Origin: Haloplanus sp. XH21
Lineage (GTDB): Archaea; Halobacteriota; Halobacteria; Halobacteriales; Haloferacaceae
Direction of reading: 5' to 3'
NCBI RefSeq assembly: GCF_023276355.1
Contig: NZ_JALLPL010000001.1
Span: 1,240,001-1,304,000, forward strand
DNA length: 64,000 nucleotides
Part shown: positions 38,411 to 40,903 of the stretch, in pieces
Numbering within the stretch: position 1 is the stretch's first letter
Layout: every line of letters starts with the position of its first letter
Notes under the pieces: model-generated
Database searches by the model: none
The model's input: only the letters and a program-made list of their open reading frames with translations
Told to the model about the DNA's origin: nothing
Position numbers and translations under genes: made by a program

Positions 38411-38698
38411 TTACGCGGCGGCGTCGTCGAACGCGGCCACGAAGTCGTCGGCGACGTCCTGCACCTGGCGCGAGGCGTCCGCGACGGCCTCCAGCGGATC
38501 GGTGCCGGATTCGGTCTTGACCGAGAGGATCGGCTCCGTCTGGCCACCCGACTGTTCGGGGTTCATGTCGTACGTCGCCGCTTCGACGCCCGCCGTCTCC
38601 AGAAGCGCCCCCTTGAGGACGTTCATGAACGTGTGATCCTCGCCCGCGATCTCCATGCGAAGTTCCTCGTCGGTGATTTCGATGACCCGCAGTTCCAT
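38411..38698 (-). CDS. rpoL: RNA polymerase subunit L (RpoL)
   Basis: This 95-residue Rpb11/RpoL protein begins MELRVIEI and has [20 protein letters not shown], the family core. It pairs with RpoD in the polymerase assembly platform. The longer upstream frame is not conserved. A GCTACTATA box on the minus strand (38760-38768) lies about 62 nt before the ATG and probably gives a short leader. It converges on hisF, six bases apart. Confidence 0.95.
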
Positions 38699-38834
38699 GT
38701 CGCTAACTACCGGCGGTTGGCGTTTCAAGGTTTCGTATACGCCCCGTCGGGTGGAGAGATATAGTAGCGTTTGGAACTGTTTGCACACCTGCTCGCCGGA
38801 TTGCGTGCGATCTGGTGTGTGATGACTTACAAAG

Positions 38835-38843
38835 GCTACTATA
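38835..38843 (+). promoter_or_regulatory. promoter-like box for the structured RNA candidate
   Basis: GCTACTATA is identical to the box facing rpoL on the other strand at 38760-38768. It ends 16 nt before the first stem-loop. Confidence 0.45.
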
Positions 38844-38858
38844 CTCGATCTCAACGAA

Positions 38859-39020
38859 CGGGCGACGCCGAGAGTGGCGTCCCCCGAACGGAGAACGTAC
38901 GGACCACGCGATGTGGTCGTTCGACTGACCAAGCCACTGCGAGGAGCACCTGACTCGCAATGTGCCGTGCGATGCTGTGGCGCGCCCGGCCGAAAGCCGC
39001 TCGCGCCAGTTTCAATTTTG
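38859..39020 (+). ncRNA. candidate structured non-coding RNA
   Basis: Four tandem stem-loops are seen. Stem 1 (38859-38886) has GACGCC/GGCGTC plus four more pairs after one mismatch. Stem 2 (38896-38923) has GACCAC/GTGGTC plus four outer pairs. Stem 3 (38935-38964) has TGCGAG/CTCGCA plus CAC/GTG. Stem 4 (38979-39007) has GGCGCG/CGCGCC with inner CGGC/GCCG. TTTCAATTTT follows, like an archaeal terminator. It does not show RNase P, SRP or tRNA signature motifs. Expression is inferred only. Confidence 0.5.
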
Positions 39021-39140
39021 ACGCTTGTGTTGAAAAACCTGTCGAATAGATCAATATCGGGTACGAACGCACCTATATCTAGTCGTATGTTTCTCTATTG
39101 TTCGATGATCGGATAGAATCCGTATCTCATTTCAGCAGGC

Positions 39141-39767
39141 TCATCGGACCAGATACGGGTCGTTGCCCGCGATGAACCGCCCGAGGTCGCTCTCGCGGCG
39201 GTAGTCGGTCTCTCGGAGCGTCTCGATGGCGTCGACCAGACGGTCGGCGTCGTCGTCGGCCCACGCGCTCGGGTCGCGAATCGGGAGGACGAGCCACCCG
39301 CTTCCCAGGAGTTCGGTCGCGTGGAGCGCCTCGACGTCGAGGTCGGTCGTCTCGTGGGCTGTGCAGGTTTCGAGGACGTGTCGGATCGGTCGCTCGCCGA
39401 CGGGGAGGAGGACGTGCGCCGCGATGGCGCGGAGTTCCGCGTCGAAGAAGGGTTCCATCGCTCCGTAGTCGTCCTCGGTCGGTTCGCCCGCGGTGACACA
39501 GGTGTGGAGATAGGAGAGATACGTGTTCGCTACCTCGGGTTCGTCGCCGGTCGTCCGCAGGAGGCCGGCGTCACGAAGCGCGCGCTGGAGGCGCCGGCCG
39601 GCCGGATGTCCCGTGAAGGGGACGCCCGTCTCGCTGCCGCCGTGGACGCCGGGATGGTCGCCGATGACGTGAAAATGCGCATTGGCGTCGCCGTACCCCG
39701 GAACGAACCGATCGCAGGGCGGTCGCATGCCAAACGGATTGCTAACGCGGTCGGTGACGTTTCGCAC
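39141..39767 (-). CDS. uracil-DNA glycosylase superfamily protein, atypical
   Basis: This 208-residue protein has the superfamily's first motif in the form GDHPGVHGGSETGVPFTGHPAG. The second-motif region reads LPVGERPIRHVL. Family 4 enzymes carry four cluster cysteines and a late His-Pro-Ser; here only Cys18, Cys89 and one later Cys are seen, and the late motif reads IRDPSAW with no His. It may bind or cleave an unusual base, or be inactive. Confidence 0.75.
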   Translation of the reverse strand: MRNVTDRVSNPFGMRPPCDRFVPGYGDANAHFHVIGDHPGVHGGSETGVPFTGHPAGRRLQRALRDAGLLRTTGDEPEVANTYLSYLHTCVTAGEPTEDDYGAMEPFFDAELRAIAAHVLLPVGERPIRHVLETCTAHETTDLDVEALHATELLGSGWLVLPIRDPSAWADDDADRLVDAIETLRETDYRRESDLGRFIAGNDPYLVR

Positions 39768-39797: not shown

Positions 39798-40271
39798 CTA
39801 GAGTTCGACGCCCGACGGGATGAGGCTCTTCGACCGCAGAAGGCTCCCGTTGGCGTCGTAGACGAGGAACGTGCTCTTCGAGTAGGTGGTGACGGGTTCG
39901 CCATCGATCTGGATGGTGACGCTGTATCGGCCACCGTCGTCGTCGGTCGACTGACCGTATTTCCGGGCCGCTCGGACGAACCGGAGGACATCGTCGGCGT
40001 CCTCGTTGAGTTCGAGGAGGAAATCCCCCGTGATGCGGTCGGTGACGCTGACGACGCCCGTCGCGTCCGGGTCGTCGAGGGGATCCTGCAGGCGGAAGGT
40101 GACGTCCGTTTCGGCGTCCTCCAGCAGCTCCCCCTCGGCGTCGGTCAGGCGATCAGTCAACGCCTCTTTCGGTCCCTGAAAGTCGATGACGACACGGGGT
40201 TCGGCCGGCTGATCGCCAGTCTCCACCCAGTCGATGTTGTCTGCTTCCAACTCGAAGTGCTCGCGCCTCAT
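39798..40271 (-). CDS. DUF5793-like haloarchaeal protein
   Basis: This 157-residue acidic protein of the haloarchaeal DUF5793 type starts MRREHFELEADNIDWVE and contains VSVTDRITGDFLLELNEDADDVL. It is probably soluble and beta-rich. No catalytic motif is visible and the function is unknown. It starts 122 nt from the divergent membrane-protein gene. Confidence 0.75.
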   Translation of the reverse strand: MRREHFELEADNIDWVETGDQPAEPRVVIDFQGPKEALTDRLTDAEGELLEDAETDVTFRLQDPLDDPDATGVVSVTDRITGDFLLELNEDADDVLRFVRAARKYGQSTDDDGGRYSVTIQIDGEPVTTYSKSTFLVYDANGSLLRSKSLIPSGVEL

Positions 40272-40375: not shown

Positions 40376-40393
40376 GTGAGTCTCTTCACGAGT

Positions 40394-40903
40394 ATGTGGG
40401 TCCGGTCGGAGTACGCCGGTGAACTGGCCGTCTTGATGACGTGGCTGGCAGCGCTGATCCCCTGGAACGTCTCCTACGCCGCGGGCACGAGCGGGAGCGC
40501 GGTCCTGTTCGTCCGGTTCCCTCTCGTCCAGGTGCGATACGTGTTCGGCGTGCCCATCGCTCGGGGGGTGTCCCTCGCCGATCCGCTCTCGGCCATCGCC
40601 TTCCAGCAGGGCCAACCCATCGAACTCGTCTATCAGGTCTGGGCCGTCGGCGCCGGCGTCTACGCCGCCGCGTTGCTCGTCTCCATCGTCTACTATCGGC
40701 GCGAGGCGTGGGCCGAATCGTGGCCCGTCGACCCCGTGCGTCTCCTCGGCGCGCTCCTGCTCGTGACGGGCCTCGTCTTCGCCGCGGCGACGTATTACCT
40801 CGCGACGCGAGGTTTCTCGTCGCTCCCCATCCCGATCGGCGTCGGTTTCCTGCTCCTGTTCGGCGGCCTCCTGCTCGTCATCGAGCGGACCGACGTGGCG
40901 TGA
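40394..40903 (+). CDS. DUF7549-like haloarchaeal membrane protein
   Basis: This 169-residue protein has four hydrophobic segments (about 8-30, 76-98, 113-134 and 143-163) and begins MWVRSEYAGELAVLMTW. It resembles haloarchaeal unknowns with this N-terminus. No transport or catalytic motif was found. ATG at 40394 is favoured over an upstream in-frame ATG, because the TATA-containing palindrome ends 18 nt before it. Confidence 0.7.
   Translation: MWVRSEYAGELAVLMTWLAALIPWNVSYAAGTSGSAVLFVRFPLVQVRYVFGVPIARGVSLADPLSAIAFQQGQPIELVYQVWAVGAGVYAAALLVSIVYYRREAWAESWPVDPVRLLGALLLVTGLVFAAATYYLATRGFSSLPIPIGVGFLLLFGGLLLVIERTDVA

Follow-up and report, generated by a model that had tools for sequence, protein, structure and literature searches.

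Gene context of the RNA locus

The interval examined lies between rpoL (38411..38698, minus strand; PF13656) and a gene of the uracil-DNA glycosylase superfamily (39141..39767, minus strand; PF03167) in a 64,000-nucleotide stretch of the Haloplanus sp. XH21 genome, referred to here as the window. Read along the minus strand from the glycosylase gene, it holds a BRE/TATA-like promoter element (GACAGGTTTTTCAA, 39030..39043), a small RNA gene with three hairpins and an unpaired tail (38902..39008), a possible fourth hairpin, an 84-bp dispersed repeat and, beyond the repeat as seen from the RNA, a promoter-like block of rpoL (CGAAACCTTGAAACG, 38721-38735) that is conserved in congeners. At nearly every locus the glycosylase-like gene is the immediate upstream neighbour of the RNA and is encoded on its strand, and rpoL follows 0.15-4 kb downstream where visible; the first-pass annotation had tied the candidate RNA to rpoL, but that link proved secondary to the conserved one with the glycosylase-like gene. 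Near the glycosylase gene lie two further genes, at 39798-40271 (DUF5793, PF19106) and 40376-40903 (DUF7549, PF24417), both of unknown function, whose homologues recur in this order at many of the loci.

In Haloferax volcanii, rpoL is HVO_1042 (PMC8576121) and the glycosylase gene is HVO_1038 (PMC7776575), and from this synteny the RNA gene is expected just behind HVO_1038. In the literature searched, HVO_1038 was named only in work on mutation rates.

A dispersed repeat between the RNA and rpoL

A search with 38760-39130 separated the interval into two unrelated components. The stretch from about 38850 to 39050 is conserved in all 12 Haloplanus genomes, and its core also occurs in other genera. 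The other component is an 84-bp element (38760..38843) whose ends are TATAGTAGC and GCTACTATA and whose body is an imperfect palindrome. It occurs in many copies in this genome, where ten more of them were read, and in congeners and other genera; copies in other genera and in another family (L201-L203) match at 53-63 of the 84 bases. The element is absent from the RNA locus in 11 of the 11 other Haloplanus genomes, and with its short dispersed copies, terminal inverted repeats and empty orthologous sites it has the properties of a MITE-like element. Its left end was also present in 21 viral contigs.

Since the insertion separates the RNA from the promoter-like block of rpoL, the repeat is the native promoter of neither gene. 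The promoter that the first-pass annotation had read in GCTACTATA at 38835 is present as sequence, but it is one end of this insertion, missing in congeners; the mirror copy of the same 9-mer facing rpoL does exist, at 38760, but it is the other end of the repeat and not a promoter.

Structure and strand of the RNA gene

The four stem-loops first noticed in the sequence proved to be real, at 38859-38886, 38902-38918 (the stem within 38896-38923), 38935-38962 and 38978-39008. Compared with dinucleotide shuffles the region folds with z -2.1 on the plus and -2.75 on the minus strand, a modestly better folding that in G+C-rich DNA would be unconvincing by itself. The sequence variants are more informative. 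At the Haloplanus paired positions that were scored, every variant is Watson-Crick or G.U when read on the minus strand, and the same G.U pairs become A/C mismatches on the plus strand; because the wobble and pair variants fit the minus strand only, the RNA was assigned to that strand.

In minus-strand order the TATA-like box is followed by hairpin P1 and, after a linker, by hairpin P2; next come the tail GUGGCUUGGUCAG(UC) and P3, a G+C-rich hairpin with a T-run behind it in several genera. Of 30 representatives drawn from many genera, nearly all have a TTTT(T/A) TATA-like box 25-31 nt upstream of P1; the box in the window, upstream of P1, likewise contains TTTT, and its activity is predicted. 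The locus thus has what is expected of an autonomous intergenic sRNA gene, namely its own promoter element at a fixed distance, and it has a conserved secondary structure with compensatory changes (P2 across the family, P1 and P3 in Haloplanus).

P1 (38978..39008, minus strand) shows a compensatory exchange of GGCGCG/CGCGCC and GACGCG/CGCGTC as well as G.U variants that fit the minus strand only, and in 21 representatives it folds with a mean z of -2.15, better than shuffles in nearly all. P2 (38935..38962, minus strand; loop UCAGGUGCUC at 38944-38953) covaries: in 56 distinct family sequences 93.4% of its pairs are standard, 5 of its 7 pairs vary on both sides, and its covariation score is 0.440, against 0.284 ± 0.015 when shuffled and at most 0.11 when slid. 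The support comes from paired cells, doubly changed cells and the score; the counts of doubly changed pairs and of pair types are no higher than in shuffles. P3 (38902..38918, minus strand) is kept as a hairpin with free sequence (mean z -2.65 in 21 representatives, better than shuffles in nearly all), shows a compensatory change from A-U to G-C in Haloplanus, and is terminator-like in many genera, with a T-run in Halonotius and others and none in Haloplanus.

As Haloplanus lacks a T-run after P3, the 3' end of its RNA is uncertain. The ends are predicted: a transcript ending with P3 would measure about 107 nt (38902..39008, the short form, kept in all Haloplanus and across the Haloferacaceae), and one that runs on through P4 about 150 nt; the length of roughly 160 nt proposed earlier thus comes close for the longer form. 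P4 (38859..38886, minus strand), a possible Haloplanus-specific 3' extension, is invariant at the scored pairs in 12 Haloplanus and was not seen in other genera; being invariant, its pairing has no covariation behind it and is unproven. P4 and a hairpin at 38879-38896 are mutually exclusive, and both are nearly constant within Haloplanus; the overlap at 38859-38896 could be a structural switch or mere overlap of pairing potential.

While the stems vary freely, two unpaired stretches are nearly fixed in the family alignments: the P2 loop, GGURCUC, and the tail, GUGGCUUGGUCAGUC (38923..38937, minus strand; 60 sequences), which overlaps the 3' end of P2 and is a candidate functional sequence. Loop and tail also persist in some genomes in which P2 is degenerate. 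Because these motifs stay fixed while the stems vary and P2 sometimes decays, we take the unpaired motifs to be the probable working part of the RNA. A pseudoknot between the P2 loop (CUG) and the tail (CAG) was considered and discarded on inspection, being disrupted in Haloplanus and Haloprofundus. A peptide-coding reading, with the tail as an open reading frame fragment, was likewise rejected, as third codon positions are fixed and the lengths behind the tail differ.

Taken as a whole, the region from 39008 to about 38902 on the minus strand is very probably an autonomous structured small non-coding RNA gene of the Haloferacaceae, perhaps extending in Haloplanus to 38859.

Distribution and variants

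With E<=1e-6 as the cut-off, a search model built from the P2-tail-P3 core (R1) matched 67 of the 94 Haloferacaceae genomes, and the 298 genomes from other families of the same order gave no match. The gene is present in 15/15 Haloferax and 12/12 Haloplanus genomes, and carriers include Halobellus, Halogeometricum, Halonotius, Halohasta, Haloprofundus, Haloparvum, Salinigranum and Haloquadratum. Genus g14 is probably Halorubrum, which is not among the names that the pattern scan gives. Behind the glycosylase gene no recognisable copy was found in the Haloferacaceae genera g3, g5 and g10 or in other families, and the absence from these three genera indicates that the RNA is not essential family-wide. 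The first-pass annotation had suggested an undescribed structured RNA, to be dropped if close relatives showed no conservation of sequence or structure next to rpoL and there was no transcript; the comparison went well beyond that test, since at the level of genus and family alike conservation extends to sequence, structure, covariation and gene order.

Several loci depart from the common form. In genus g12 (L097, L105, L110) and in genome G026 (L215), P2 is degenerate with the GUGCUC motif and tail retained, the tails of L105 and L110 carrying substitutions. In genus g17 (L204, L207), a P1-like hairpin stands behind the glycosylase gene, with ATTGGTGCTC or ATCGGTGTTC after it; this doubtful remnant may be a relative of the RNA that has diverged strongly. 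Two bacterial MAG contigs (L136, L138) also match the pattern exactly but have none of the haloarchaeal neighbours; these matches are presumably due to chance or misbinning. Viral copies of the RNA were not found.

Relation to known RNAs

No Rfam 15 family matched in the window at the gathering threshold, and in a permissive scan of 38700-39150 the sole match, at 13.5 bits where the cut-off is 60, was noise. The earlier statement that the region lacks an RNase P signature holds, the single RNase P RNA of the genome (RF00373) lying elsewhere (C1:123829-124225). Bacterial seed-region trans-acting sRNAs have a promoter, a 5' hairpin, a conserved unpaired stretch and a terminator-like hairpin; the RNA described here has the same layout, a likeness for which no homology is claimed.

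Archaeal H/ACA guide RNAs carry several short hairpins in series, with an ANA box behind the hairpin and a K-turn or K-loop. The row of short hairpins is shared, but the alignments of the present RNA show no conserved ACA box or K-turn. Membership was rejected on inspection: almost every sequence has GUGG instead of ANA after P2, and neither strand shows a conserved K-loop. The window does carry an ACA behind P1, and Haloplanus a plus-strand K-loop, GAGGAGCACCUGACUC, but neither feature is conserved.

The closest parallels are the intergenic sRNAs of Haloferax volcanii and H. mediterranei, which are alike in being short intergenic genes with a promoter-like element (PMC3956466, PMC5852579). 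However, the RNA studied here occurs family-wide with covariation; most of the H. volcanii sRNAs tested (22/27) were reported without homologues outside the species (PMC3956466). Another H. volcanii RNA, rancRNA_s194, is an independently transcribed, ribosome-bound sRNA of about 100 nt with a TATA box (PMC6104027), reported to be conserved only in Haloferax and ending in stretches of 4-6 C. It resembles our RNA in TATA box and size, and ribosome binding is one possible function here, but it is encoded at HVO_2011s2 (PMC3956466), whereas synteny puts the present RNA behind HVO_1038. The loci probably differ, and identity of the two RNAs is unlikely. A very abundant antisense sRNA reported at the glycosylase gene HVO_RS09685 (PMC5892119) may concern the present locus, although the strand as described does not fit.

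The tail sequence did not occur in the searched literature. Since published catalogues hold hundreds of Haloferax sRNAs, a transcript from this locus may already be catalogued. Intergenic archaeal sRNAs are a known kind; no description of this family, of its covariation or of its range across the Haloferacaceae turned up in the literature searched. The RNA could become an Rfam family. It is distributed family-wide, it covaries, its gene order is stable and it has a candidate functional sequence; the gene is also present in the genetically tractable Haloferax, where the role of a conserved haloarchaeal sRNA could be put to a direct genetic test.

Possible function

The best explanation overall, to which we give an even chance, is a gene for a trans-acting small regulatory RNA with the tail, perhaps together with the P2 loop, as its seed. 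The RNA would act in trans as an autonomous regulator: GUGGCUUGGUCAG, possibly assisted by the P2 loop, would serve as a fixed seed that pairs with several mRNAs and alters their translation or stability, and P1 and P3 would protect the ends of the RNA. The base-pairing step itself is conceivable at somewhat under even chances. Among exact 11-mer complements, none was common to the 12 Haloplanus genomes except the RNA gene itself, and complement counts in Haloplanus were not above those of the reversed pattern; this target search covered exact 11-mers only. One Haloplanus (L255) has a 14-nt complement that falls at a start codon; it was set aside as unconserved.

A tentative alternative, for which the case is appreciable, is that the GGURCUC loop and the tail GGCUUGGUCAG are recognised by a protein (e.g. 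Lsm) or the ribosome, the RNA acting in a ribonucleoprotein and not as an antisense molecule. Two fixed motifs in fixed places on a covarying stem would suit such binding, as would the lack of a conserved complementary mRNA among exact 11-mers in Haloplanus and the precedent of a ribosome-bound sRNA in Haloferax volcanii (PMC6104027); yet no known protein-binding motif was recognised in it, no Rfam family matched, and the binding is predicted only. A narrower version, a housekeeping-like RNA restricted to the Haloferacaceae that forms a ribosome-, Lsm- or polymerase-associated particle, for example, through GGURCUC and GGCUUGGUCAG, appears unlikely. If true, it would represent a functional class for which no counterpart among archaeal RNAs has been described.

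That the RNA shares its strand with both neighbours and, at almost every locus, directly follows the glycosylase gene would also suit a cis-acting element, either a 3' untranslated region of that gene or a 5' leader of rpoL. We consider this improbable, as a TATA-like box of its own lies between the glycosylase stop codon and P1, other sequence of up to 4 kb separates the RNA from rpoL in most genera, rpoL has its own conserved promoter-like block, and complementarity to the glycosylase mRNA, a possible cis target, is not above that of shuffles. Pairing of the tail with the 3' end of 23S rRNA, suggested by an exact 11-nt complement (GACCAAGCCAC) in this genome, is very improbable: the rRNA end is not the same across Haloplanus and Halogeometricum (AGTCCAAG, AGTCCGAG, AGTCCATAGCC), whereas the tail is constant, and shuffled tails attain similar energies. 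Equally little credence can be given to the plus-strand RNA of the first reading, running from GCTACTATA to TTTCAATTTT. The four hairpins do fold on the plus strand too, but GCTACTATA belongs to a repeat that congeners lack at this place, and the supposed terminator TTTCAATTTT, present at 39010-39019, is unconserved and stands 5' of the true RNA, whose pair variants fit only the minus strand.

One genome of genus g6 (G016; L106, in the rpoL region) keeps the P2 hairpin and loop with the tail altered to GTCAATTGATCATGA. The glycosylase gene has no close counterpart there, the best match reaching 34% identity, and the genome offers a natural variant in which matching changes in targets can be sought.
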